Source of the DNA: Hymenobacter sp. APR13
GTDB lineage: Bacteria > Bacteroidota > Bacteroidia > Cytophagales > Hymenobacteraceae
DNA length: 64,000 nt
Assembly (NCBI RefSeq): GCF_000737515.1
Contig: NZ_CP006587.1
Coordinates: forward strand, 4,273,001-4,337,000
Direction of reading: 5' to 3'
Shown: positions 8,004 through 19,793 of the stretch, one piece after another
How positions within the stretch are numbered: position 1 is the stretch's first letter
How the letters are laid out: each line of letters opens with the position of its first letter
Position numbers and translations under genes: made by a program
The notes under the pieces: model-generated
The model's input: the letters and a program-made list of their open reading frames with translations, nothing else
What the model was told of the DNA's origin: nothing
Database searches by the model: none

Positions 8004-8825
8004 CTATGCCGCAGGCAGCACCAGCACCGGCAGGCGGCTGTGCAACAGCACCTGGGCCGTTACGCTTCGGTGGAAGAGCTGCCCGAAGAAGCTGCGGTGC
8101 CGGGCAATTAGCACCACCAAATCATAGTCGGCAGGGTTGGCGGCGTGCAGGATGGCGGCGGCGGGAGGCGCGTGCCCGACCGTGCGGGTCTGCACCGGCG
8201 GCAAGTCGATGGTGAGGCCGGTGCGCAGCACCGAGTCCAGGGCCTGGGCTTCGGTGGCGGCCGACGAAGTGCTATCGGGGGCGACGTGCAGCACCGTGAG
8301 CTGGGCCTGCAGGGCCGTGAGCAGGTGGCGGGCGGCCCCGGCATAGTCACCGAGCGTGAACTGCTCCCCATCAACGGCCAGCAGCACCCGCCGGGGTGAG
8401 GCGGTGGTTTGCTGGCTGTGGGGCACCACCAGCATGGGGTACGGGGCCGTGCGCAGGATGTCGAGGGCGGTGGTTTGCACCAGCTCATCGGGCGTGCCGG
8501 ACTGGTCGGGGCGGCCCAGGATGATGAGGGCCGGATGGTGGCGGCTGACGGCATCGGCCACGGCAAACGCCACGCGGCCGTGCGCCACTTCGGCCACCAC
8601 GGGCACGGCCAGGTTGCCGGCTAGGCTGGTAAGGGCCAGGTTGATGGCTTCCTGGCTCAGGTTGGACAGCTCGCCGGTGAACATTTCGGGGTCGAGGACG
8701 GAGTCGCGGCGTACGTGTAGCAGCACCAGGCGCGCCCCCAGCGGGCCAGCCAGATTGGTGGCGTAGTCGAGGGCGCGGTTGGCGGCCTGGAAGAAGTCGG
8801 TGAGAATCAGCAGCGAAGTAGCCAT
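8004..8825 (-). CDS. Universal stress protein, tandem UspA domains
   Basis: 273 aa with two UspA-like Rossmann-type domains: one from MATSLLILTDFFQAAN, the second from about residue 140 (RRVLLAVDGEQFT). The start is ATG 8825, where the conserved Usp beta-strand begins. The ATP-binding G-x2-G-x9-G(S/T) signature is not visible in either half, so nucleotide binding is doubtful. The second domain ends with the Bacteroidota-typical block RSFFGQLFHRSVTAQVL. It is divergent from ldhA; the shared dyad at 8912-8927 lies 51.5 bp upstream of its putative -7 box. It is one of four such genes in 12 kb. The biochemical role is unknown beyond stress association of the family. Confidence 0.9.
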   Translation of the reverse strand: MATSLLILTDFFQAANRALDYATNLAGPLGARLVLLHVRRDSVLDPEMFTGELSNLSQEAINLALTSLAGNLAVPVVAEVAHGRVAFAVADAVSRHHPALIILGRPDQSGTPDELVQTTALDILRTAPYPMLVVPHSQQTTASPRRVLLAVDGEQFTLGDYAGAARHLLTALQAQLTVLHVAPDSTSSAATEAQALDSVLRTGLTIDLPPVQTRTVGHAPPAAAILHAANPADYDLVVLIARHRSFFGQLFHRSVTAQVLLHSRLPVLVLPAA

Positions 8826-8860: not shown

Positions 8861-8868
8861 CAAAGCAC
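8861..8868 (-). promoter_or_regulatory. Putative -7 box of usp (8004-8825)
   Basis: GTGCTTTG on the minus strand keeps the TTTG half of TAnnTTTG but not TA. Its 5' end is 51.5 bp from the centre of the dyad at 8912-8927, the same offset seen for the upstream dyads before the 15.3-kb and 18.9-kb genes. Confidence 0.35.
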
Positions 8869-8911
8869 CGGCACCGCCGCCGCCCGTCCTATGCCAAAGC
8901 TTAGCGGCGGG

Positions 8912-8927
8912 CATGACGTTCGTCATG
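8912..8927. promoter_or_regulatory. CRP/FNR-type operator A (usp / ldhA divergent)
   Basis: CATGACGTTCGTCATG is a perfect dyad with 7-bp arms centred at 8919.5, containing the core TGA-N6-TCA. Its centre is 29.5 bp upstream of the ldhA -7 box, so a bound dimer would be at about -41.5. A degenerate partner (TGC-N6-TTA) is centred 22 bp away at 8897.5. Confidence 0.7.
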
Positions 8928-8948
8928 AGAACCGGCCGGACCGGGCCG

Positions 8949-8956
8949 TAACCTTG
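8949..8956 (+). promoter_or_regulatory. -7 box of ldhA
   Basis: TAACCTTG matches TAnnTTTG at five of six fixed positions, 29.5 bp from the centre of operator A. It predicts a leader of about 60 nt. Confidence 0.55.
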
Positions 8957-9021
8957 TGCTGCAGCCTGCCCGGCCTGCCGGTTTTCGGTGGGTGGCCGGG
9001 TTGCGTTTCACATTGCCTACT

Positions 9022-10047
9022 ATGCGCGCCACCCTATTCAGTGTTCAATCGTTTGAGCGCAGCTTTCTGCAGCACGCCAACACCCGCCATCACCAGCTGC
9101 AGCTGCTGGACACGCGCCTATGCGCCGACACCGCCCACTTGGCCCAGGGCGCGGCGGCCATCAGCGTGTTCAGCCCCGATGACGTGTCGGGGCCGGTGCT
9201 GGAGCAGCTAGGTGGCTACGGCGTGCGCTATGTGGCCGTGCGCGCCGCCGGCTTCGACAACGTAGACCTGGTAGCGGCCCGGCAGCTGGGCATCCGGGTG
9301 GCCAACGTGCCCGACTATTCGCCCCACGCCATTGCCGAGCACGCCGTGACGCTGATGCTGACGCTGTGCCGCCACCTGCGCCAGGCCGACCAGCAGCTGC
9401 GGGCCAACGACTTCCGGCTCGACCAGCTGATTGGGTTTGAGCTGCACGGCAAGACGGTCGGGATTCTGGGCGTGGGGCGCATTGGGGCCGTGGTGGCGCG
9501 CATTCTGCACGGCTTTGGCTGCCGGCTGCTGGGCACCGACGTGCAGCCCAACCCTGAGCTGACCGAGCGCTACGGCCTGGAATACGTGCCACTCAACCAG
9601 CTCTGCTCCCAATCGGACATCATCAGCGTGCACACGCCGCTCACGCCTCAAACCCGCCACCTGATCAATGAACGGCTACTCAAAAGCATGAAGCCCGGCG
9701 TGATGCTCATCAACACAGGCCGCGGGGGCGTGCTGGACACGGCCGCCGCGCTGCAGGCCCTCAAATCGGGCCAGCTGGGCTTTCTGGGGCTGGACGTGTA
9801 CGAAGCCGAGAAGGGCCTGTTTTTTACGGACCACACCCGCGACCTGCTGCTTGACGACACGTTTGCCCGCCTGCTGACCTTCAAAAACGTGCTCATCACC
9901 GGCCACCAGGCATACCTGACCCGCGAGGCCCTCACCAACATTGCCGAGGCCACCGTGGCCAGCCTCACGGCCTGGGACCAAGGCGAAACCCCGGCGCACG
10001 AGCTTCAGCCGCTGGTGCGGGCCCTGGCCGCCGGCAGCCCTAGCTGA
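9022..10047 (+). CDS. ldhA: D-lactate dehydrogenase (2-hydroxyacid dehydrogenase)
   Basis: 341 aa. NAD-dependent reduction of pyruvate to D-lactate, a fermentative electron sink. The NAD-binding loop is GKTVGILGVGRIGAVVA (about residues 143-159), with substrate Arg/Glu motifs in VAVRAAGFDNVD and LINTGRGGVLDT. Catalytic His is H295 in ITGHQAYLTREAL, the block that marks true D-LDH within the wider family. Start ATG 9022 agrees with the conserved MRATLFSVQSFE; the open frame extends 22 codons further but crosses the promoter. It lies in a stress-protein cluster behind a dyad operator, which fits induction when respiration is limited. Confidence 0.92.
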   Translation: MRATLFSVQSFERSFLQHANTRHHQLQLLDTRLCADTAHLAQGAAAISVFSPDDVSGPVLEQLGGYGVRYVAVRAAGFDNVDLVAARQLGIRVANVPDYSPHAIAEHAVTLMLTLCRHLRQADQQLRANDFRLDQLIGFELHGKTVGILGVGRIGAVVARILHGFGCRLLGTDVQPNPELTERYGLEYVPLNQLCSQSDIISVHTPLTPQTRHLINERLLKSMKPGVMLINTGRGGVLDTAAALQALKSGQLGFLGLDVYEAEKGLFFTDHTRDLLLDDTFARLLTFKNVLITGHQAYLTREALTNIAEATVASLTAWDQGETPAHELQPLVRALAAGSPS

Positions 10048-10060
10048 ACCTGCTTAAGGG

Positions 10061-10076
10061 CATGACGAATGTCATA
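10061..10076. promoter_or_regulatory. CRP/FNR-type operator B (upstream of pair)
   Basis: CATGACGAATGTCATA contains TGAC-N4-GTCA centred at 10068.5. It lies 22 bp upstream of the second dyad (10081-10100) and 50.5 bp before the putative -7 box at 10119. Confidence 0.65.
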
Positions 10077-10080
10077 GCGC

Positions 10081-10100
10081 AAACTGATGCTAATCAGTTT
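10081..10100. promoter_or_regulatory. FNR-like dyad B2 (or weak ldhA terminator)
   Basis: AAACTGATGCTAATCAGTTT is a perfect 8-bp-arm palindrome centred at 10090.5. It contains TGAT-N4-ATCA, close to the classical FNR half-sites. Centre-to-centre distance to operator B is exactly 22 bp. An alternative reading is an A/T-rich hairpin terminating ldhA. Confidence 0.5.
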
Positions 10101-10118
10101 ATTAGCAGGATAAAACTT

Positions 10119-10126
10119 CGAATTTG
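10119..10126 (+). promoter_or_regulatory. Putative -7 box for the small ORF and usp at 10387
   Basis: CGAATTTG keeps TTTG but not TA. It lies 28.5 and 50.5 bp from the centres of B2 and B, one base shorter than at the other promoters of the group. Confidence 0.35.
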
Positions 10127-10179
10127 CAGTAGATTTTCTTGTCTGATGTGGGCCAACCAGCCCCGAAATTCCAAACGCC

Positions 10180-10278
10180 ATGGTAACTCCCACCCTCCTG
10201 CTTACAATGTTGCTGCTGGCCGCTCTGGCCCTGACTAGTGCCTACCGGCGTGGCATGCAGCAGCGACCTGCCGCCTGA
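10180..10278 (+). CDS. Candidate 32-residue membrane peptide
   Basis: An ATG-TGA frame starting about 50 nt after the predicted transcript start encodes MVTPTLLLTMLLLAALALTS followed by AYRRGMQQRPAA. That is one membrane helix (residues 5-21) followed by a short basic tail, the build of accessory peptides of membrane complexes such as CydX-like proteins. It lies 108 bp before a usp gene on the same strand and would share its transcript. No homology was recognised; reality of the gene rests on position and hydrophobic pattern only. Confidence 0.4.
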   Translation: MVTPTLLLTMLLLAALALTSAYRRGMQQRPAA

Positions 10279-10386
10279 CGCGGCACCCGTTGCGGGCCGC
10301 CGCCGCCGACCAGAGCCGCCAGCAGTTCCGGTCTGGGTGGTTGCGGGCGGCCTGATACCGTGTTTCTATCTTCCCAGCGCTGCTGT

Positions 10387-11250
10387 ATGCCTCCTTCCCT
10401 TCTCGTCCTGACGAATCTGGCTGCCCCTGCCGAGCAAGCCGCACGCTATGCGGCACTACTCGGCGCGCCGCTGCACGCCCGGCTGGTGCTGCTGCACCTC
10501 TACCACAATCCGGTGCTGGACCCCGAGCTGGTGACCGTGACTACGGCGCAGGCCTACCGCAGCCAGGCCGAAACCTCGGTGGCGCTGCACCAGCTGGCCG
10601 ACCGCCTGAACACCCCGGCCAGCGTCGAAGTGTCAGTATGGGCGGCGCCCGAAGCCGTGGATGAAGCCGTGCGGCGGCACAAGCCATTGCTGCTGGCCAT
10701 GGGCCTGAGTGCGGAGCAGGATATCCTCGACCACCTGCTGCACAACCAGGCGCTGCCCGTGCTGCGGGCCACGCACCGCCCGCTACTGCTGGTGCCGGCC
10801 GCGGCTACCGCCGGGAGCCGGCCGCGCCGCGTGGTGCTGGCCGTTGATGCCGAAGAATTCACGCCGAACGCCGCCACCCGGGCCGTTGCCCCGCTGCTGG
10901 CCTGCTGGGGCGCCGACTTCACGGTGGTGCACGTAGCGCCAACAGCCGAGCGGGAGGCCTTTGCGGGCCAGCGGGCGCTGGGGGCCGTGCGCCTGAGCGG
11001 GCTGCTGCCGGCCGCCACCGCGCCCATGCTCTACGAATCCAAGCGCATGCCTGCAGCCACCGGTATTCTGCAAGCGCTGGAAGACGTGCAGGCTGATTTG
11101 CTGGTGCTGCTGGCTCGGCCCCGGAGCTTCTTAGGGCGCCTGTTCCACCAAAGCGTGACGGCCCAGGTGCTGCGTGGCAGCCGCGTGCCGGTGCTGCTGT
11201 TGCCGGTTGAAGCGCCCGAACAGCCCGGCTGGATGCCGCCCATGTGCTAA
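10387..11250 (+). CDS. Universal stress protein, tandem UspA domains
   Basis: 287 aa, two UspA-like domains: residues 1 to about 140 from MPPSLLVLTNLAAPAEQAARY, and from about 142 (RRVVLAVDAEEFT) to the end. ATG 10387 is chosen because the first beta-strand begins there. The block RSFLGRLFHQSVTAQVLRGS near the C-terminus is nearly the same as in the usp at 8004-8825, so these are paralogues. No complete ATP-binding glycine motif is visible. It probably heads an operon with the next usp (80-bp gap) and is preceded by the tandem dyads B/B2. Function beyond family membership is unknown. Confidence 0.9.
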   Translation: MPPSLLVLTNLAAPAEQAARYAALLGAPLHARLVLLHLYHNPVLDPELVTVTTAQAYRSQAETSVALHQLADRLNTPASVEVSVWAAPEAVDEAVRRHKPLLLAMGLSAEQDILDHLLHNQALPVLRATHRPLLLVPAAATAGSRPRRVVLAVDAEEFTPNAATRAVAPLLACWGADFTVVHVAPTAEREAFAGQRALGAVRLSGLLPAATAPMLYESKRMPAATGILQALEDVQADLLVLLARPRSFLGRLFHQSVTAQVLRGSRVPVLLLPVEAPEQPGWMPPMC

Positions 11251-11330
11251 GCGGCCCGCGGCCGGAGCACGCGCTTCGTTCCGCCAATATTCTGGCGAGA
11301 TGCCTATTTGCTACTTTTTCCCGTTGCGCG

Positions 11331-12182
11331 ATGAAACCTAACCTGGTTGTTCTCACCGATTTCTCGGCCGCCGCCGAGCGGGCCCGGGCCTACGCCGCGG
11401 CTCTGGCGGCAGCGCTGGGCGCTGAGCTGCACCTCGTGCACGCCTACTCGCCGATGCCACTCACGGCCACCGAGTTCGGGGTCATCATGCCGCCCATTGA
11501 CACCCGCTACGTGCAGGAAACCCGGCAGGCGCTGGAGCAGGTGGCAGCCGGCCTCCCGGTGCCGGCCACGGCCGAGCTGCTGGAAACCGACTGGTACGGG
11601 GCAGTGGTGCACACCCTCAGCCATTACCATCCGCTGCTGCTGGTAGCCGGCCTCACGGCTACCGAGGGCCTGCTGGATGAGTGGCTCAGCAACCGTGCCC
11701 TGCCCCTGGCCCACGAAACCGGCTACCCGCTGCTGCTGGTGCCCGAGCACCTGCCCGACACGGCCCTGCACGCGCCGCGCCGCCTGGCCCTGGCCGTCGA
11801 GGACCGGGCGTTTCGGCTGGCGCCGGCCGCCACCGCCGTGGCGCCCCTGCTCGATGCGCTGGACACCGAGGTAGTGGCAGTGTGCGTGCTGCCCGCCGAA
11901 CAGCGCGCCGGGGGCTGGACCGGGCTGCAGGCCCTGCAGCACTCCGGCCTGAGTGCCGCCATTAGTGGCTGCGGGCTGCACAAAGTCACCGGCGACGCAC
12001 TGGGGCCAGGCATTCTGCAGGCCGCGGCAGAGTTGTCGGCGGATATGGTGGGTTTGCTCGACCAGGGCCACGGCTGGATACACAAGCTCTTCCACGGCAG
12101 CGTCATCGACCATGTGCTGCGCCACACGCCGCTGCCGGTGCTGCTACTGCCCACCGACCCGCAGCCGCTTCTGCCCGGCTAA
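11331..12182 (+). CDS. Universal stress protein, tandem UspA domains
   Basis: 283 aa, third member of the cluster. It starts MKPNLVVLTDFSAAAERARAY at ATG 11331 (an in-frame extension to 11244 would overlap the previous gene and is not Usp-like). The second domain from about residue 143 (RRLALAVEDRAFR) is more diverged and ends in KLFHGSVIDHVLRH. Canonical nucleotide-binding glycines are not apparent. No TGA-N6-TCA dyad lies in the 80 bp upstream, so it is likely co-transcribed with the preceding usp. A GC-rich hairpin follows before the ATPase gene. Confidence 0.88.
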   Translation: MKPNLVVLTDFSAAAERARAYAAALAAALGAELHLVHAYSPMPLTATEFGVIMPPIDTRYVQETRQALEQVAAGLPVPATAELLETDWYGAVVHTLSHYHPLLLVAGLTATEGLLDEWLSNRALPLAHETGYPLLLVPEHLPDTALHAPRRLALAVEDRAFRLAPAATAVAPLLDALDTEVVAVCVLPAEQRAGGWTGLQALQHSGLSAAISGCGLHKVTGDALGPGILQAAAELSADMVGLLDQGHGWIHKLFHGSVIDHVLRHTPLPVLLLPTDPQPLLPG

Positions 12183-12248
12183 GCCAGTTTTTCCGGCCGG
12201 CTGGCAGCATGCCACCGGTTAGCAGCATCCTTCCACTCCTGAAACCAG

Positions 12249-12288
12249 GCGGGGCGGGCATCAGGCACTGGCCTGGTACCCGCCCCGC
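12249..12288 (+). terminator. GC-rich hairpin between usp and P-type ATPase
   Basis: A 10-bp perfect stem (GCGGGGCGGG / CCCGCCCCGC) with a 20-nt loop lies 66 bp after the usp stop. There is only a weak T-run, so termination may be partial. Confidence 0.5.
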
Positions 12289-12340
12289 TTACTGTTGCCC
12301 TGCGCACCGGGTTCCGTTTATCATATCATTAACTGCCGCC

Positions 12341-14887
12341 ATGCACGCTGCACTCCCCGCTCCCGCCCCGCCGAAACCGGCCCCCTCGGCCGCTGCCTCC
12401 GTGGCCGGCGAAACTGCCGGCGGCCTGGGCCTCACCGATGCCGCCGTAGCCGCAGCTCGCCGGGCGCATGGCAGCAACACCCTGGCGGCATCCGCCGGGG
12501 CCGGCTGGCTAGGCACCCTGAAGGAAGTAGTGCTGGAGCCCATGTTCTTGATGCTGCTGACGGCCGGCGGCCTCTACGTGGCGCTGGGCCAGGCCCAGGA
12601 AGCCATTACGCTGCTGCTGGCCCTGCTGCTGGTAGCGGGCATTTCCCTCTACCAGAATATCCGCAGCAACCAGGCCCTGAGCGCCCTGCGCGAGCTTACC
12701 CAGCCCCAAGCCCAGGTCCGGCGCAACGGGGCGGTGGTTACGGTGCCGGTTGAGAAGTTGGTGGTAGGCGATGCTGTGCTGGTAGCCGAGGGCAGCCGCC
12801 TGCCCGCCGACGGCACCGTCACCGAGCTCAACGACTTTTCGGTGGATGAGGCCATTTTGACCGGGGAGGCCGTACCGGTAGCCAAGGCCCGCGGCGACGC
12901 CGTGTTTGGCGGCACCAGCGCCGTGACTGGCAGCGCCTGGCTGCAGCTTACGGCCGTGGGCAACAGCTCTCGGCTGGGCGTCATCGGCCACAGTATGGAA
13001 AGCATAATCACCGAAAAAACGCCCCTGCAGCGGCAGGTGCACCAGTTTGTGCTGCGCATGGCCTGGGTGGGCGCGGGTGCCTTTGCGCTGGTGTGGGGCG
13101 TGAACTATGCGCACTCCGGCAACTGGGTGACGGCGCTGCTGTTTGGGCTTACGCTGGCCATGTCCGTTCTGCCCGAGGAAATTCCGATGGCCTTCAGCAG
13201 CTTTATGGCCCTGGGCGCCGCCCGCTTGAGCCGGCTGGGCGTGCTCACCAAGCAGCCCCAGACCGTGGAAAGTCTGGGCTCGGCCACCATCATCTGCACC
13301 GACAAAACCGGCACCCTCACCCAGGACGGCATGCGCCTGGCTCAGGTGTACGCCGAAGCCACCCAGACGCTACTGCCGGTGCCGGGCGCGCTGCCCCCGC
13401 AGGCCACGCAGGTGCTGGCCTACGCCCGCTGGGCCAGCGAAACCACTCCGTTCGACCCCATGGAGCAGGCCCTGGTGGCGGCCTTCGCCACGGCTAGCCC
13501 CGCCGAGGCCCAGGCCCCCTGCCCCATGGTGCACGAGTACCCGCTGGCCGGCACGCCCCCCATGATGACCCACGTACGGCAAATCGGCGGCGCGCAGGTG
13601 GTGGCGGCCAAGGGGGCGGTAGAGCACATTCTGGCCGTATGCCGCCCGGCCCCGGCCGATGCCGCCCGGCTGCGCGAAATGGCCCGGCAGCTGTCCGTGC
13701 AGGGCTACCGGGTGCTGGGCGTGGCGCAGGGCCAGCCCGAGCATAGTGGCTTCCCGGCGGAGCAGGACGATTTCCGTTGGACGCTGCTGGGACTGGTGGC
13801 GCTGGAAAACCCACCCAAAGCCAACGCCGCCGCGGTGGTTCGGGCCTTCACGCAGGCCGGCATTCAGGTGAAGATGATTACCGGCGACTTCCCCGAAACC
13901 GCCCAGGCCATTGCCCGCCAGATTCAGCTGCCCGACGCCGATACGCTGCTCACCGGCCAGCAGGTGATGGACCTGCCCGAGCCCGAGCTGCAGCGCCAAG
14001 CCGCGGCCACTGCCGTGTTTGCCCGCATGTTTCCGGAAGCCAAGCTGCGCGTGGTGGAAGCCCTAAAAAAGAACGGCGCCGTGGTGGCCATGACCGGCGA
14101 CGGCGTCAACGACGGCCCGGCCCTCAAGGCCGCCCACATCGGCGTGGCGATGGGCCGGCGCGGCACCGAGGTAGCCCGGCAAGCGGCCTCCCTGGTGCTC
14201 GTGGATGATGACCTGGGCAGCATGGTGACGGCCATTGCACAGGGCCGCCGCATCTACCAGAACTTCAAAAAGGCCGTGTTCTACGTGGTGTCCATCCACC
14301 TGCCGATTGTGCTGACGGTGGCCGTGCCGCTGCTGGCGGGCTGGCCGCTGGCTAACCTGCTCACGCCCGTGCACATCATCTTTCTGGAACTGGTGATGGG
14401 CCCTACTTGCTCCATTGCCTTCGAAAACGAGCCCGCCGAAGCCGGCCAGATGCTTCAGCCCCCACGCCCCCTCACGGCCACCTTACTGGCCGGGGCCGAG
14501 CTAAGCCGCAGCCTGGTGCAGGGCCTGGGCATTTCGGCGGCGGTGCTGGGCGTGTACTACGTGGCCATGCGGCTGGGCCAGCCCGAAGCGGCGGTACGCT
14601 CGCTGGTGTTTGCCACGCTGGTGCTCAGCAACATCTTCCTCACGCTCAGCAGCCGGTCGTTTACGCAGTCGGTGGGGCGGATGCTGCGGGTGCCCAACCC
14701 GGTGCTGTGGCTAATGCTGGGCCTTACGCTGGCGCTGCTGCTGGCCACGCTGCTGGTACCCGCGGCCCGGCAGCTGTTCGGGTTTGTGCCAGTGCCGCCG
14801 GCCGCGCTGAGCTGGTGCACGCTGGCGGCGCTGGCCGGCACGGGCTGGGTGGAAATCTACAAAGCCATACGGCGGGCCAAGGCCTGA
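12341..14887 (+). CDS. Cation-translocating P-type ATPase (P2-like)
   Basis: 848 aa inner-membrane pump. Phosphorylation site DKTGTLTQDGM has D321; the actuator loop LTGEAVPVAK is near residue 174, and the hinge MTGDGVNDGPALKAAHIGVAMG near 583-604. M4 carries LPEEIPMAF (about 277-285) instead of the PEGLP of classical Ca2+ pumps, and M6 reads FLELVMGPTCSIAFENEP. These features place it in the Ca2+/Mn2+-type P2 branch or a related uncharacterised cation group; the ion cannot be fixed from sequence. No N-terminal CxxC metal domain, so not a Cu/Zn pump. Start ATG 12341 (MHAALPAPAPP). It follows the usp genes and may be co-expressed with them. Confidence 0.88.
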   Translation: MHAALPAPAPPKPAPSAAASVAGETAGGLGLTDAAVAAARRAHGSNTLAASAGAGWLGTLKEVVLEPMFLMLLTAGGLYVALGQAQEAITLLLALLLVAGISLYQNIRSNQALSALRELTQPQAQVRRNGAVVTVPVEKLVVGDAVLVAEGSRLPADGTVTELNDFSVDEAILTGEAVPVAKARGDAVFGGTSAVTGSAWLQLTAVGNSSRLGVIGHSMESIITEKTPLQRQVHQFVLRMAWVGAGAFALVWGVNYAHSGNWVTALLFGLTLAMSVLPEEIPMAFSSFMALGAARLSRLGVLTKQPQTVESLGSATIICTDKTGTLTQDGMRLAQVYAEATQTLLPVPGALPPQATQVLAYARWASETTPFDPMEQALVAAFATASPAEAQAPCPMVHEYPLAGTPPMMTHVRQIGGAQVVAAKGAVEHILAVCRPAPADAARLREMARQLSVQGYRVLGVAQGQPEHSGFPAEQDDFRWTLLGLVALENPPKANAAAVVRAFTQAGIQVKMITGDFPETAQAIARQIQLPDADTLLTGQQVMDLPEPELQRQAAATAVFARMFPEAKLRVVEALKKNGAVVAMTGDGVNDGPALKAAHIGVAMGRRGTEVARQAASLVLVDDDLGSMVTAIAQGRRIYQNFKKAVFYVVSIHLPIVLTVAVPLLAGWPLANLLTPVHIIFLELVMGPTCSIAFENEPAEAGQMLQPPRPLTATLLAGAELSRSLVQGLGISAAVLGVYYVAMRLGQPEAAVRSLVFATLVLSNIFLTLSSRSFTQSVGRMLRVPNPVLWLMLGLTLALLLATLLVPAARQLFGFVPVPPAALSWCTLAALAGTGWVEIYKAIRRAKA

Positions 14888-14907
14888 AGAGCGACTAAGG
14901 CAAAAAC

Positions 14908-14947
14908 CCAGTAGCAGAAACGCCACAATCCGCGTTTCTGCTACTGG
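14908..14947. terminator. Bidirectional terminator between convergent genes
   Basis: A perfect 16-bp stem (CCAGTAGCAGAAACGC and complement) lies between the ATPase and the minus-strand thioredoxin-like gene. Confidence 0.75.
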
Positions 14948-14983
14948 ATTTCGTTGATGGGCCAGCGCAATTCAACCACTTTC

Positions 14984-15319
14984 CTAGCTGATGCCGGCCT
15001 GCAGCAGCACTAGGTCGAGGGCGGCAACTCCGTCCGGGGTGGGCATGCCGGGCTGGCGCCACAGCTCCACGCCCTGGTGCAACAGCACGCAGGTGGGCAG
15101 CTGCTCGGGCGCAAAGCTGTGTACCACCGCCGGAAAAGCTGCCTCGTTGATTTGCATCACCTGCACGGCCGCACCCAGCCGGCGCTGCAGCGCCTCCAGA
15201 TCGGAAGCCGAAAAGCCGGGCCCGGCTGCCGGAGTCGAAAACGACGAAGCGGGCAGCAGCACCAGCAGCACGGCAGCAGCCGGCAGTTCTGGCGCCGCTG
15301 GTGGAGGATAGCCTGGCAT
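14984..15319 (-). CDS. Thioredoxin-fold protein lacking the CxxC motif
   Basis: 111 aa. A Pro/Ala-rich, hydrophobic N-terminus (residues 10-25 could be a membrane anchor or poor signal) is followed by a thioredoxin-like domain. QVMQINEAAFPAVVHSF corresponds to the beta-strand and helix after the active site. LPTCVLLHQGVELWRQPG is the cis-Pro loop (LPT) and the strand that follows it. The usual WCGPC is absent, so it cannot be an ordinary thioredoxin; a binding or chaperone role is possible. It has the best promoter of the regulon: perfect -7 box TAATTTTG and two dyads at 29.5 and 51.5 bp. The ATG at 15319 would give a leader of about 27 nt. Confidence 0.7.
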   Translation of the reverse strand: MPGYPPPAAPELPAAAVLLVLLPASSFSTPAAGPGFSASDLEALQRRLGAAVQVMQINEAAFPAVVHSFAPEQLPTCVLLHQGVELWRQPGMPTPDGVAALDLVLLQAGIS

Positions 15320-15350
15320 GGGCGGCGGTGAAAACGGGGAAGGACGAATC

Positions 15351-15358
15351 CAAAATTA
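15351..15358 (-). promoter_or_regulatory. -7 box of the thioredoxin-like gene
   Basis: TAATTTTG on the minus strand is a perfect TAnnTTTG. Its 5' end (15358) is exactly 29.5 and 51.5 bp from the centres of dyads C and C-prime. Confidence 0.65.
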
Positions 15359-15379
15359 CCATGCAGACTCCCGCGCCCA

Positions 15380-15395
15380 CATGACGAACGTCAGG
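15380..15395. promoter_or_regulatory. CRP/FNR-type operator C
   Basis: CATGACGAACGTCAGG holds TGACG-AA-CGTCA centred at 15387.5, between the minus-strand thioredoxin-like gene and the histidine kinase. The position fits class II activation of the minus-strand promoter. Confidence 0.68.
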
Positions 15396-15402
15396 AAGGC
15401 CA

Positions 15403-15416
15403 CTGAGATAGGTCAT
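15403..15416. promoter_or_regulatory. CRP/FNR-type half-conserved dyad C-prime
   Basis: CTGAGATAGGTCAT contains TGA-N6-TCA centred at 15409.5, exactly 22 bp from the centre of operator C and 51.5 bp from the -7 box of the thioredoxin-like gene. Confidence 0.5.
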
Positions 15417-15463
15417 CTGTGGTTTTTTGCGCAAGTTGCGCCCTTCTTCGCTTCTTGCCGCCC

Positions 15464-17080
15464 ATGCCCACCGAGCTATACCAGAATCCACTAACCGACA
15501 TTCTGTTTGAGCAGGCCAAGGATTTTGTGGGCCTTTACGACGTGACACTGGGCTGGTTTTCGCGGGTGAATGCGGCCGGCTACCAGCTGCTGGGCTACCC
15601 CTCGGCCCAGGCTCTCTATCAGGATCCGGTTCGGTCGTTGCGCGCCGCGCCGCTGCTGCCCGCCGACCAGGCCGTGCTGCGCGAAAAAATCCGGCAGGAA
15701 GGCCGCTACGAGCAGGAGCTGGAGGTGCGCCACCAGGCCGGCCACACGTTCTGGGCCCAGGTAGAGGCTTCGCCGCTGCAGCTGGAGGGGCGACCGTATC
15801 TGTTGGTGCGGCTCACCAACACCCAGCCGCTGCACCAGGCCGAGCAGCAGCTGGCGCAGAGCTTGGGCCGGTTTGAAGCCGTGTTTTCGCACGCCACCAT
15901 CGGCATCATCGTCTGCAACCGCCAGGGCCATATCGAGCTGGCCAACGCCAAGGCCCAGGAGCTGTTCGGCTATACGGGCCCGCCGGGCCTCATGGGCCGC
16001 CGCATCGAGGAGTTGGTGCCCGATGCCGCCGGCCGCCGCCACGAGCAGCTGCGGGCCGGCTTCAACGCCCACCCCACGGCCCGCGTGATGGGCGCCCACC
16101 GCGGCGCGCTGGAAGCCCTGCGCCAGAATGGCAGCGTGTTTCCGGTGGAAATCAGCCTCAGCCACTTCCACCTCGACGACGAGCTGTTTGTGGTGTCCTA
16201 CATCATCGACATCACCTTCAAAAAGGAAGCCGAGCGGGAGCTGATTGCCCAGCGCCAGCGTGTAGAGCGCCTCAATGCCGACCTGGAACGCAAGGTAGCC
16301 GACCGCACCCACGCTCTGATGACCACGCTGGGCCAGCTGGAGCAGCGCACCCGCGAGCTAACCCAAGCCCTGGCCGCCGAGCAGGAACTGGGCGAGTTGA
16401 AGTCGCGGTTCGTGAGCATGGCCTCGCACGAGTTCCGCACCCCCCTGACCACGGTACTCACCTCGGCCGCCCTCATCGAAAAGTACCCCGGCGCCGACCA
16501 GCAGGACAAGCGCCTGCGGCACCTGGACCGCATCCGCACCTCGGTGAAGCACCTGAGCGACATTCTGGAGGAATTTCTGTCGGTGGGCAAGATTGAGGAA
16601 GGCCGGGTGCAGGCCCGCCCCTCCCGGCTGGACCTGCCGGAGCTGCTGCAGGAAACCGTGGCCGACGTGCAGGGGCTGCTGCGGCCGGGCCAGCGCATTG
16701 TGCCGGAGCTGCTGGGCACCGAGCCCGCCTGGCTGGACACGTCGCTGCTGCGCAAAATCCTGGTCAACCTGCTCTCCAACGCTCTCAAGTACGCCGCCGA
16801 AAACACCACGGTGCAGGTGCGCGCGGCCTGCCAAGCCGGCCGCCTCACGCTGGTGGTGCAGGATGAAGGCGTGGGCATTTCGGAGGAAGACCAGCAGCAC
16901 CTGTTCGAGCGGTTTTTTCGGGCCCGCAACGTCACCAATATTCCCGGCACCGGCCTGGGACTCTACATAGTTGGCAAGTACCTGGAGCTGATGGGCGGCA
17001 CTATTGCCCTGCACAGCCAGCTAGGGGTCGGCACCACCGTTACCATCTCCATACCCTATGAAAACCATTCTGCTGATTGA
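15464..17080 (+). CDS. PAS-domain sensor histidine kinase
   Basis: 538 aa, apparently cytosolic (no membrane segment seen). A first PAS-like domain at about residues 8-125 is followed by a second, S-box PAS at about 140-255 (FEAVFSHATIGIIVCNRQGHIELAN). Then come a coiled-coil linker, a HisKA domain with H322 in SMASHEFRTPLTTV, and a HATPase_c domain (NLLSNALKYA, DEGVGI, GTGLGLYIVGKYLE). The second PAS resembles FixL, but the haem-ligand His position appears as Arg (RVMGAHRG), so haem binding is unlikely. Its stop overlaps the next gene by 23 bp, indicating translational coupling with that response regulator. Start ATG 15464 (MPTELYQNPLTD). The signal is unknown. Confidence 0.92.
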   Translation: MPTELYQNPLTDILFEQAKDFVGLYDVTLGWFSRVNAAGYQLLGYPSAQALYQDPVRSLRAAPLLPADQAVLREKIRQEGRYEQELEVRHQAGHTFWAQVEASPLQLEGRPYLLVRLTNTQPLHQAEQQLAQSLGRFEAVFSHATIGIIVCNRQGHIELANAKAQELFGYTGPPGLMGRRIEELVPDAAGRRHEQLRAGFNAHPTARVMGAHRGALEALRQNGSVFPVEISLSHFHLDDELFVVSYIIDITFKKEAERELIAQRQRVERLNADLERKVADRTHALMTTLGQLEQRTRELTQALAAEQELGELKSRFVSMASHEFRTPLTTVLTSAALIEKYPGADQQDKRLRHLDRIRTSVKHLSDILEEFLSVGKIEEGRVQARPSRLDLPELLQETVADVQGLLRPGQRIVPELLGTEPAWLDTSLLRKILVNLLSNALKYAAENTTVQVRAACQAGRLTLVVQDEGVGISEEDQQHLFERFFRARNVTNIPGTGLGLYIVGKYLELMGGTIALHSQLGVGTTVTISIPYENHSAD

Positions 17081-18113
17081 AGACAACGCCCCGATTCGCG
17101 AAAACACTGCCGAGATTCTGGAGTTGGCTGGCTACGCCGTGCACACCGCCGAAAACGGCAAGCTGGGTGTGGAGCAGGCCCTGGCCGTACGCCCCGACCT
17201 GGTAATCTGCGACATTATGATGCCCGTGCTCGATGGCTATGGCGTGCTGCACATCTTCAACCAGAATCCCCAGCTGGCCGGCATTCCGTTTATTTTCCTG
17301 ACGGCCAAAACTGAGCGCATCGACCAGCGCCGCGGCATGGAGCTGGGCGCTGACGACTACCTCACCAAGCCCTTTGACGAGGCCGAGTTGCTGAGCGCCA
17401 TCACGGGCCGCCTCAACCGCTTCCGCCGCCTGCAACCCGACTACGACCTGCGCAGCGAAGCTGGCCTGCACGAGTTTCTGGACGATGCCCGCGCCGTGGG
17501 CGGCCTGCAACGTTTGTCAGTGGACCGCAAGCCCCACGCCGTGCGCAAAAAGCAAGACATCTACCGCGAAGGCGACGAGCCGGCCCGGGTGTACTTTGTG
17601 CAGAGTGGCCGGGTGAAAACCGTGAAAACCACCAGCGGCGGCAAGGAGCTGATAACGGGCCTCTACGGGCCCGGCGAGTTTTTCGGGTACCTATCGGTGC
17701 TGCAGCGCATGCCCTACGACGACTCGGCCGTGGCCGTAGACGATACGGCCCTGGTGCACATTCCGAAGAGTGATTTTCTGCAGCTGGTGATGCACAACGC
17801 CGAGGTGGGCCAGCAGTTTATCCGGCTGCTGGCGGGCCGGGTGCGAGAGCGGGAACAGCAGCTGCTCGACATGGCCTATAACTCCATCCGGCGGCGCGTG
17901 GCCGACACGCTGCTGCACATGCACGAGCAGGCCGGCAGCACTCCGGAAGCCGCCATCCAGCTCTCCCGCGACGACCTGGCCGCCATCGTGGGCACGGCGC
18001 CCGAGTCGCTGATCCGTACGCTGAGCGAGTTTCGGCAGGATGGCCTGATAGAGCTGACGCCCAAAAACATTCGGGTGCTGCAGCCGGCCAAGCTGCGCAA
18101 CGGCCACTGGTAG
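17058..18113 (+). CDS. Response regulator: receiver domain fused to CRP/FNR-type DNA-binding protein
   Basis: 351 aa. Receiver domain at residues 1-120 with acidic pocket ED at 8-9, phospho-acceptor D52 (LVICDIMMP) and the conserved K of YLTKPFD. A cyclic-nucleotide-binding-like beta-roll follows at about 150-270 (IYREGDEPARVYFVQSGRVK). The C-terminal HTH_CRP is at about 275-345, with recognition helix APESLIRTLSEF. E316 and R320 fall where CRP/FNR use Glu and Arg to read the TGA of their half-sites. There is no FNR cysteine cluster, so input should come by phosphorylation from the overlapping kinase. It is the best candidate to bind the TGA-N6-TCA dyads in this block. Confidence 0.92.
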   Translation: MKTILLIEDNAPIRENTAEILELAGYAVHTAENGKLGVEQALAVRPDLVICDIMMPVLDGYGVLHIFNQNPQLAGIPFIFLTAKTERIDQRRGMELGADDYLTKPFDEAELLSAITGRLNRFRRLQPDYDLRSEAGLHEFLDDARAVGGLQRLSVDRKPHAVRKKQDIYREGDEPARVYFVQSGRVKTVKTTSGGKELITGLYGPGEFFGYLSVLQRMPYDDSAVAVDDTALVHIPKSDFLQLVMHNAEVGQQFIRLLAGRVREREQQLLDMAYNSIRRRVADTLLHMHEQAGSTPEAAIQLSRDDLAAIVGTAPESLIRTLSEFRQDGLIELTPKNIRVLQPAKLRNGHW

Positions 18114-18134
18114 CCGGGCAGCGCAGCGTGCCTT

Positions 18135-18524
18135 TTAAATCAGCGAAAGTGGGTCTCGTTTGCGCAGGCGGTACTCAAACATAGTAGCAATGTTGAGGGC
18201 CCGCACCTTGGCCTCCTCGGCTTTCGAGCCTGCAAATAGCTCGTCTACGGTACTTCCAAACAGCTCCAGCCAGCGCTGAAAGTGCGTGGCATCGATGGGT
18301 AGCGGCATATGTTTGGGGAAGGGCCGGCCGTGGTAGCGCGCACTGCCCAGCAGAATGCTGCTCCAGAAATCGTACATGATGGGCAGGTGGCGCGACCAGT
18401 CTACGCGGGCAAATTCGTTGAATACGGGGTCCAACAGTGCATCGAGGTGCACTTTCTGATAGAACGTATCGACGAGGAGCTGAATATCTGCTTCAGTTTG
18501 AATATCAGGAACTACGGCGGCCAT
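18135..18524 (-). CDS. Truncated haemoglobin, group III
   Basis: 129 aa globin of the 2-on-2 type. The proximal haem ligand is H81 in DATHFQRWLELF, the group III pattern; MYDFWSSILLGSARYHGRPF (residues 50-69) covers the E-helix region and distal pocket. Such proteins bind O2 and NO and are linked to nitrosative or low-oxygen stress. Start ATG 18524 (MAAVVPDIQTEAD) is preferred over an upstream in-frame extension. It converges with the response regulator gene and diverges from a usp gene; the dyads at 18655-18692 lie upstream, but no -7 box is at the standard offset on this strand (a possible CAACTTTG is at 18621-18614). Confidence 0.88.
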   Translation of the reverse strand: MAAVVPDIQTEADIQLLVDTFYQKVHLDALLDPVFNEFARVDWSRHLPIMYDFWSSILLGSARYHGRPFPKHMPLPIDATHFQRWLELFGSTVDELFAGSKAEEAKVRALNIATMFEYRLRKRDPLSLI

Positions 18525-18654
18525 AGAAGCAGATGGTAAGAGAAACAGAATCGGCGGCAAACGCAAAGGCCAGGCCGGGAGCCACTCCAACCCGGCCTTC
18601 CGGAACAATCCCACAAAGTTGAAAGTTTGAGGCCGGATTGCGCAATAGGCCCTG

Positions 18655-18670
18655 CCTGAGATGAATCAGG
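18655..18670. promoter_or_regulatory. CRP/FNR-type dyad D-prime
   Basis: CCTGAGATGAATCAGG has 5-bp perfect outer arms and the core TGA-N6-TCA, centred at 18662.5. That is exactly 22 bp upstream of operator D and 51.5 bp from the usp -7 box. Confidence 0.55.
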
Positions 18671-18676
18671 CACAAA

Positions 18677-18692
18677 CCTGACATTCGTCAGG
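18677..18692. promoter_or_regulatory. CRP/FNR-type operator D
   Basis: CCTGACATTCGTCAGG is a dyad with 6-bp perfect arms, centred at 18684.5. It is 29.5 bp upstream of the -7 box at 18714, the same geometry as for ldhA and the thioredoxin-like gene. Confidence 0.7.
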
Positions 18693-18713
18693 TAACGGGC
18701 GCGCCGTGCAGGA

Positions 18714-18721
18714 GAACTTTG
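18714..18721 (+). promoter_or_regulatory. -7 box of usp (18864-19793)
   Basis: GAACTTTG matches TAnnTTTG at five of six fixed positions. It predicts a leader of about 138 nt, unusually long for this cluster. Confidence 0.5.
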
Positions 18722-18863: not shown

Positions 18864-19793
18864 ATGAACACGCTTCTCGTTCCCCTCGACCACACAACTT
18901 CGGCCGAACCCCTGCTGGCCTACGCCAACAAGCTGGCCGTGCGCTGGCCAGCCGAAATCGTACTGCTCTACTGCCAGCCACCAGTTCCCGATGCCGACGG
19001 GGCTTCGGCCGTACGCACCGCCGACCTGGCCGTGGAGGAACAGCGCCTGCGCAGCCTCGTGGAGCGCCTGCGCTACCAGCAACTCACCCGCCAGGATGGC
19101 CGCCGCATTCGCTACCACTACCGCGTGCTCAGCGGCTGCCTCCACGACCACATCGCCGCCGAAGTAGCGCGCTGTGCTGCCCAGCTGGTGGTGATGAGCC
19201 TAGAACACGTAGACTGCGGCCGCCAGGAGGCGCCCGGCAACCACGCCGCCGCCATTGCCGACCTCATTGCCTGTCCCGTGCTGGTGGTGCCGCCCGGCCG
19301 CCGGTCGTTGCCGAGCCGGCTGGTATTCAGCGCCGATTTCAGTACGCTGCCACTCCACACGCTGCCGCGGCTATCGGCGCTGGCGGAGGCCTTCCCCGGC
19401 ACCCTGGATCTGGTGCAGTTCTACGCCCCCACCGAGCGCAGCCGGCGCCTTGCTCTCAAGCAGGCCCAGACGCGCGCCCTGCGTCAGCTAACCTGGCCCC
19501 ACGTGCACACTCACCTGCTCGAAGACGAGTCGGCGCTGGAAGGCGTGAGTGAGTTTTGCGCCCGGCAGCAGGCGCAGCTGCTCATCGTAGCTCCGGCCAG
19601 CCGCGCCGAGCTGCTGCACTACTTCGATGCCTGCTACACCACCACGCAGGCCTACCACACGCGCATACCGGTACTGGTGGTGCGGAGCGCCGGCGCCTCG
19701 GCCCACACGGTGTGCTGTGGCAAGTGCGCCGAGCGTCTGACGCGCGAGCAACTGCAAGCCAATCTTATCCTTCAATCTGCCCAGCCGGCTTAG
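18864..19793 (+). CDS. Universal stress protein with Cys-rich C-terminal tail
   Basis: 309 aa, two UspA-like halves (MNTLLVPLDHTTSAEPLLAY; second from about residue 150, SRLVFSADFSTLPLHTLPR). It is only distantly similar to the other three Usp proteins of the block. The C-terminus carries HTVCCGKCAERL (about residues 286-297), a CCxxC cluster that could bind metal or sense redox state. No canonical ATP-binding glycines are seen. It lies downstream of tandem dyads D-prime/D and ends at a long hairpin terminator. Start ATG 18864 is well placed for the first Usp beta-strand. Confidence 0.85.
   Translation: MNTLLVPLDHTTSAEPLLAYANKLAVRWPAEIVLLYCQPPVPDADGASAVRTADLAVEEQRLRSLVERLRYQQLTRQDGRRIRYHYRVLSGCLHDHIAAEVARCAAQLVVMSLEHVDCGRQEAPGNHAAAIADLIACPVLVVPPGRRSLPSRLVFSADFSTLPLHTLPRLSALAEAFPGTLDLVQFYAPTERSRRLALKQAQTRALRQLTWPHVHTHLLEDESALEGVSEFCARQQAQLLIVAPASRAELLHYFDACYTTTQAYHTRIPVLVVRSAGASAHTVCCGKCAERLTREQLQANLILQSAQPA

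Follow-up and report, generated by a model that had tools for sequence, protein, structure and literature searches.

Do the TGA-N6-TCA dyads that stand before several genes of Hymenobacter sp. APR13 form the operators of one regulon and, if so, which protein works it? In this work we have addressed this question for a window of 64,000 nucleotides, meaning the whole stretch of DNA that was analysed (contig NZ_CP006587.1, positions 4,273,001 to 4,337,000), which contains 23 such dyads, whereas 100 shuffles gave 7.45 ± 2.60 with 15 as the largest count. A preliminary description of this DNA had singled out seven dyads (starting at 8914, 10063, 10085, 15382, 15404, 18657 and 18679) as a candidate regulon with a fixed distance between the dyad centre and the 5' end of a -7-like promoter box. 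All seven are present, and the distances are right: ldhA, usp18864 and a thioredoxin-like gene have 29.5 base pairs (bp), usp8004 has 51.5 bp and a promoter at 10.1 kb has 28.5 bp. We consider it very likely that these sites belong to a low-oxygen regulon of the FixL/FixK kind, where a PAS histidine kinase would act through a receiver-bearing CRP activator sitting at the promoter as two adjacent dimers. The regulon is probably worked by the two-component regulator encoded beside the sites, referred to below as the receiver-CRP protein. Many related bacteria have this switch as well. The dyads, their pairing, the box distance, the recurrence before the same targets and the association of the sites with the receiver-CRP gene, by co-occurrence and by linkage, are all read directly from the sequences.

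The pairing and the promoter phase were determined in the loci of relatives. The receiver-CRP gene of the window (17058..18113, +), our candidate regulator, encodes a receiver, a cyclic-nucleotide-binding-like domain and a Crp-type helix-turn-helix, and a scan with its product yielded 364 loci, of which the best 80 were taken with up to 10 kb per side (1.54 Mb); their genes were called as greedy longest open reading frames (ORFs). TGA-N6-TCA occurs 811 times in these loci, against 167 of the control. The dyads are spaced by 22 bp in 77 pairs and by 23 bp in 23, whereas all other spacings up to 80 bp are seen 0 to 8 times, the next commonest being 44 bp (8, some of them triple arrays) and 49 bp (5). 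After removal of look-alike stretches 71 pairs remained (60 at 22 bp and 11 at 23 bp), and ten dinucleotide shuffles of the loci produced 0 or 1 pair against the 100 real ones. For the exact box NANNTTTG we counted 115 cases at 29.5 bp from a dyad centre, compared with 0–2 in the ten shuffles, and 139 at 51.5 or 52.5 bp (106 and 33, respectively). Other offsets from 16.5 to 66.5 bp gave 0–7 cases, except for 16 and 14 at 17.5 and 18.5 bp; we rejected this small peak as a promoter phase, as by eye it mostly reflects TGA..TTTG letters inside the second dyad. When the three pairs of the window are added to the 80 loci, 100 of the 103 pairs are flanked, on one side or both, by a box with at least 4 of 5 letters at a distance of 29.5 or 30.5 bp, and 22 of them have it on both; the pairs without such a box are those of L066 and L098 and the window's own pair at 10.1 kb. 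These counts from many genomes strongly support the proposal of a regulon with 22-bp pairing and a fixed phase of 29.5 and 51.5 bp, and its argument that matching pairs are unlikely to arise by chance is borne out by the shuffles.

In the base profile of these promoters A..TTTG stands out at the box, and the -33 region shows no distinct TTTG; this is what an activator substituting for the -33 element would lead one to expect. Of the 139 cases with an exact distal dyad and an exact box, 122 retain four or more of the six arm letters in the proximal dyad. The inside of the distal dyad is A-rich and that of the proximal dyad T-rich, so that the pair is roughly a mirror image about its middle. This form would suit divergent genes such as usp8004 and ldhA. 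The first of these is a Usp-family gene (8004..8825, -; the likely start is the ATG at 8825, with a longer ORF to 8858), and the second encodes a D-2-hydroxyacid dehydrogenase resembling D-lactate dehydrogenase (9022..10047, +), the top NCBIfam matches of which are D-lactate dehydrogenases, all under the cut-off. Their common strong dyad TGACGTTCGTCA (8914..8925, centre 8919.5) lies 29.5 bp from the ldhA box TAACCTTG (8949..8956, +). It had been described as a lone dyad serving usp8004 from 51.5 bp; the distance is correct, but the dyad is not alone, as a degenerate dyad TGCCAAAGCTTA (8892..8903, centre 8897.5, 4 of 6 arm letters) lies 22 bp from it and 29.5 bp from the usp8004 box GTGCTTTG (8861..8868, -). 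The two genes therefore share a pair in which each dyad serves one box at 29.5 bp. In the closest relative, G140, the arms of the strong dyad, the ldhA box and the stretch around the usp8004 box are conserved, and the degenerate dyad is kept with one change. In E. coli, CRP/FNR-dependent promoters of classes II and III have the dyad centre 29.5 bp ahead of the -10-like element (measured to its 5' base) and a second dimer bound upstream. The 29.5 bp of our 115 cases is to be compared with a class II site at about -41.5, and with starts placed by the box the two dyads would be centred at -41.5 and -63.5. Unlike in the E. coli promoters, the second dimer would directly abut the first (22–23 bp) and the box is of the TAnnTTTG type at -7.

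A genome-wide search, which the preliminary description had suggested, found the exact 22-bp pair at five places in the 5.0-Mb genome, three of them in the block within the window, and the reversed-pattern control gave 0. All five are within 7 kb of one of two receiver-CRP genes: those of the window are 0.5, 1.7 and 7 kb from the first copy, while the others (C1:4749104 and C1:4749572) are about 2.1 and 1.7 kb from the second (C1:4751274-4752326), the product of which is 64% identical to that of the window. This second locus, L117 (C1:4743000-4760000), also contains ccoNO, a FixI-like ATPase, a thioredoxin-like protein and a kinase, together with its own operator pairs. The ccoNO product is a fusion of cbb3 oxidase subunits I and II (NCBIfam PRK14485, over the cut-off), and the ATPase carries a PF12156 domain, as in FixI, with which we take this domain to be associated. 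At the ccoNO gene of this genome the distal dyad is exact, the proximal one is degenerate and the box is GACCTTTG (C1:4746346); the second receiver-CRP gene is followed by a similar site at C1:4752356. One exact dyad with a box falls within the two blocks in 5 of 11 cases at 28.5–30.5 bp and in 7 of 9 at 50.5–52.5 bp. By contrast, the core TGAC-N4-GTCA, given earlier for the four strong dyads, failed as a signal on its own: it is not enriched in this genome (44 against 38 in the control), and the two lone copies that we examined, at C1:3631246 outside long open frames and at C1:2891993 inside one, both lack a box. It is the pairing and the box distance that carry the signal, not the core by itself. 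The copy at C1:3631246 (L118:4247), a perfect TGACGTTCGTCA, lies in a stretch which by eye resembles a dispersed repeat, and the ORFs flanking it look like CysN and uroporphyrinogen methyltransferase, also by eye.

Which genes does the operator serve? In the relatives' loci we collected the promoters in which a dyad and a box, both exact, are 29.5, 51.5 or 52.5 bp apart (176 in all), and assigned them to gene clusters, each named from a single representative. The commonest target is ccoNO (23), followed by P-type ATPases (18), thioredoxin-like proteins (13), the kinase and Usp proteins (7 each) and globin-like proteins (5). YkuD-type proteins (4), D-2-hydroxyacid dehydrogenase, PNPOx and receiver-kinase proteins (3 each), nitroreductase and phosphoketolase (2 each) and acetate kinase (1) were found less often, among others; two unnamed clusters have 5 promoters each, and no gene was found behind 32. 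The 18 ATPase promoters represent the whole of cluster 4, FixI-like and Ca-type proteins together, and this cluster is mixed, with 18 members nearer to FixI and 20 nearer to the Ca-type protein of the window (12 of them at 30–33% identity). D-lactate dehydrogenase, Usp proteins and a thioredoxin fold, the targets expected from the window, were recovered, whereas the main ones, cbb3 oxidase and FixI, had not been on that list; it is these that give the regulon its low-oxygen meaning. The thioredoxin-like protein is a small one of 111 amino acids (14984..15319, -), preceded by the operator pair TGACGAACGTCA / TGAGATAGGTCA (15382..15415, 22 bp apart) and the box TAATTTTG (15351..15358, -), which is 29.5 bp from 15387.5. 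It has no Pfam or NCBIfam match; a thioredoxin fold lacking CxxC had been claimed for it, and this agrees with the predicted fold (best match E 1e-5, TM 0.63) and with the absence of CxxC in 27 of 27 sequences. Its cluster is found in 44 of the 80 loci, adjoining the kinase.

Orthologous promoters were compared in six genomes of the same genus, with the usp11244 rows left out. This footprinting, also suggested in advance, found the pair before the thioredoxin-like gene in six of six genomes (with 4 of 5 box letters in five of the six), before fixI in five and before ccoNO in four; within the stretch examined, fixI was not found in L153, nor ccoNO in L152 or L153. In five of these six relatives fixI stands at the place of the Usp-family gene usp18864 (18864..19793, +), whose own promoter in the window has the pair TGAGATGAATCA / TGACATTCGTCA (18657..18690, 22 bp apart) and the box GAACTTTG (18714..18721, +) at 29.5 bp from 18684.5. 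The gene ldhA is present in only one of the six stretches, that of G140, so that the comparison of its promoter is with one close relative. A broader sample of 26 genomes, hand-picked from the 127 of the family which have the receiver-CRP gene (18 of the genus and 8 of other genera, including all three without an exact 22-bp pair), gave 19 ccoNO loci; 16 of these have a dyad and a box at exactly 29.5 bp, 15 of them with the pair. The remaining three are L141 and L142, where the sequence covers 1.5 kb from the match, and the locus of our own genome. G015, one of the three genomes without an exact 22-bp pair, has a 23-bp pair.

The receiver-CRP protein matches PF00027 with 80.4 bits (cut-off 27.5) and PF13545 with 62 bits (cut-off 27), which places it in the CRP/FNR superfamily, and as a response regulator it matches PF00072 with 91.3 bits, has Asp52 in 68 of 69 sequences and is preceded by an overlapping kinase gene. 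FNR and Anr sense oxygen by an Fe-S cluster of their own, and their half-sites are of the TGA type. In contrast, 65 of 69 receiver-CRPs have no Cys after residue 150, so that an FNR-type cluster is not to be expected in them. At the places of Glu72 and Arg82, which we take to be the cAMP pocket of E. coli CRP, they have by eye Tyr (69 of 69) and Asp (66, with Glu in 3), unlike cAMP-binding CRP. In the recognition helix, Glu316 and Arg320 never vary (69 of 69), which suits a TGA core. The FNR/FixK site is TTGAY-N4-RTCAA; its TGAY..RTCA core is like that of our sites, but in the proximal sites TCA is followed by T or G in 108 of 115 cases and by A in only 6. The output of DosR/DevR is of the NarL type, whereas here it is Crp-type. 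An AlphaFold2 model of the protein reached a pTM (predicted TM score) of 0.39, and we set it aside as too weak. At E <= 1e-60 at least 7951 sequences match the protein, with generic names among the best 120 listed.

Some of our results weigh against the reading of a FixL/FixK-like regulon worked by this protein. The kinase rarely has a facing box (7 of the 176 promoters), and general autoactivation of its gene was rejected on this count. In the own genome, 6 of 11 combinations of dyad and box at 28.5–30.5 bp and 2 of 9 at 50.5–52.5 bp are outside the two blocks, 6 of these 8 being within long open frames. A further point concerns the kinase (15464..17080, +). Its second PAS domain (residues 162-274) matches FixL heme PAS structures among others, with a modest E of 4e-6 to 3e-5, and its best structure match is a multi-sensor kinase (8e-7), not FixL. 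Could the regulon and the regulator be right, and the signal be nitric oxide, redox state or starvation? The better score of a non-FixL PAS would fit this, and targets such as Usp, L,D-transpeptidase-like and thioredoxin-fold proteins are general stress genes. On the other hand, the candidate His208 of the PAS domain is present in 66 of 70 sequences and ccoNO is the commonest target. Cbb3 oxidase, Usp proteins, D-lactate dehydrogenase, phosphoketolase and acetate kinase taken together point to oxygen limitation. We therefore regard a signal other than oxygen as possible though unlikely, and oxygen as the likely one.

More questions are raised by the identity of the activator. Perhaps the sites and their phase are real, and another CRP/FNR protein of the same cell, without a receiver, activates the promoters directly, while the receiver-CRP gene is linked to them as a target or partner. 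We compared 150 genomes of the family, scored as having the receiver-CRP gene at a best E <= 1e-90 (127) or as lacking it at a best E >= 1e-35 (23, from four genera). Genomes with the gene contain 4.49 pairs on average and those without it 0.70 (p 4.5e-12, uncorrected for relatedness), and the roughly six-fold difference holds within the genus as well (4.23 in 48 genomes against 0.78 in 18, p 2.6e-8, likewise uncorrected); the reversed pattern occurs 0.13 times per genome in both groups. However, one to three pairs persist in 12 of the 23 genomes without the gene, and other CRP- or receiver-like proteins score in each genome. With the same query, ccoNO was found in none of these 23 genomes and in 19 of the 26 hand-picked ones (p 3.5e-8, uncorrected for relatedness). 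The regulator, the oxidase and the sites come and go as a module, so that the loss of sites could follow the loss of targets; the sites may have gone with their targets in genomes lacking both the regulator and ccoNO. Among 148 genomes of the phylum, 23 have the gene (E <= 1e-60), 18 a pair with a box and 15 both (p 2.6e-12, again uncorrected for relatedness), and all 23 of the former and 17 of the 18 latter belong to the class of the window. Eight of the 23 have no exact pair with a box, and three genomes, two of the class and one from elsewhere in the phylum, have such a pair without the gene. As to linkage, 9 of the 13 genomes of other genera with both have a pair with a box no more than 25 kb from the gene, and 4 have one no more than 100 bp from it (13 of 40 hits); all five pairs of our own genome are close to the two copies, as described above. 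The activity of another protein thus seems improbable to us, and the receiver-CRP, proposed earlier as the regulator from its position in the block, is by co-occurrence and linkage the best candidate. Chance or base composition can be dismissed: although the lone core is as frequent as its control and has a perfect copy without a box outside long open frames, the shuffles fall far short of the real pairs and boxes, and reversed patterns gave 0 in the own genome and in the phylum and 0.13 per genome in the family.

How would the FixL/FixK-like switch work? From these arrangements we infer direct binding of the receiver-CRP, its control by phosphorylation, an oxygen or redox signal, activation rather than repression, and the start sites. 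We hypothesize that the PAS histidine kinase phosphorylates the receiver of the 17058-18113 product, in which the small-molecule switch typical of the CRP family appears to be lost, and that the phosphorylated dimers then bind two adjacent TGA-N6-TCA sites 22–23 bp apart. At the proximal dyad, 29.5 bp 5' of the -7 box, the protein would occupy the place of a class II activator and substitute for the -33 element, while the distal dyad may assist through contact between the dimers or through placement of the polymerase alpha subunit. Being roughly a mirror image, one pair could drive divergent promoters. Activation would extend to cbb3 oxidase (ccoNO), FixI-like ATPases, Usp proteins, the thioredoxin-fold protein and fermentative enzymes such as the ldhA product.

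Similar logic is known from other bacteria. In FixL-FixJ-FixK a PAS kinase acts through a CRP/FNR-type activator on cbb3 oxidase at low oxygen; here, unlike there, the receiver and the CRP output would be united in one protein, and, unlike FixK sites, ours have T or G rather than A after TCA, dyads paired at 22–23 bp and a box of the Bacteroidota type. The related hFixL-FxkR-FixK pathway of rhizobia shares this scheme and acts on similar genes with other regulators (PMC7888657). Usp-rich low-oxygen genes under a CRP/FNR-type regulator are found with Anr/FNR, including the Burkholderia lxa locus (PMC6127331), although the Cys residues distinguish those proteins from ours. Two-component control of Usp and nitroreductase genes in hypoxia is also a feature of DosR/DevR and of Streptomyces OsdR; these differ in their output domain, and a cbb3 oxidase at the centre is not noted for them in the available part of PMC5069765. 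The NmpRSTU system of Myxococcus xanthus likewise places cbb3 oxidase, its P-type ATPase and Usp under two-component control, with an NtrC-like regulator in place of a CRP-type one (PMC11841059). In the open-access PMC literature that we searched, no description of the present regulon was found. In the accessible part of a wastewater study, CRP/FNR homologues of Flavobacteriales and Saprospiraceae are reported near MalR, with no mention of "receiver" or "tandem" (PMC8510549), and the accessible part of a 2025 study of CRP/FNR evolution does not mention "receiver", "response regulator" or "bacteroid" (PMC12531629).

For Hymenobacter, Spirosoma, Larkinella and their relatives our results offer a candidate oxygen-response regulator, and since the operator is resolved to single base pairs, its targets can be predicted genome by genome. 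They also suggest the idea that phosphorylation may stand in for the small molecule in a CRP-type activator. We lean, if only slightly, towards a still broader view, namely that a large family with generic names consists of phosphorylation-driven, ligand-blind CRP activators which condense FixL-FixJ-FixK to one step, serve one class of Bacteroidota as a main regulator at low oxygen, and act as two abutting dimers on a mirror-like operator of 34–35 bp able to fire two divergent class II promoters.

The promoter at 10.1 kb fits this picture least well. Its dyads and its 28.5-bp distance are as first described. Its strong dyad TGACGAATGTCA (10063..10074) is identical in G140, while the second dyad TGATGCTAATCA (10085..10096) has lost its TGA arm there, and the proposed box CGAATTTG (10119..10126, +) is doubtful and not conserved; with the second dyad and the box lost in the closest relative, membership in the regulon looks weak. 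Downstream of these dyads an ORF of 32 amino acids with a hydrophobic stretch (10180-10278, +), whose start, stop and frame look unchanged in G140, may be the real first gene of this promoter. In the promoters of the 80 loci an A is enriched 45.5–46.5 bp from the proximal dyad centre (in 60 and 59 of 149), which is 16–17 bp past the 5' end of the box; if transcription started there, the dyads would be nearer to -45 and -67 than to -41.5 and -63.5. Arrays of three dyads at successive distances of 22 bp occur at L041:12268, L045:12271, L071:19302 and L077:16518, adjoining a YkuD-type (L,D-transpeptidase-like) gene in Fibrisoma, Fibrella and Spirosoma. Lastly, L048, a contig titled Flavobacterium sp. 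SUN052, encodes a receiver-CRP 70% identical to that of the window, which is the level of the Spirosoma and Larkinella matches.

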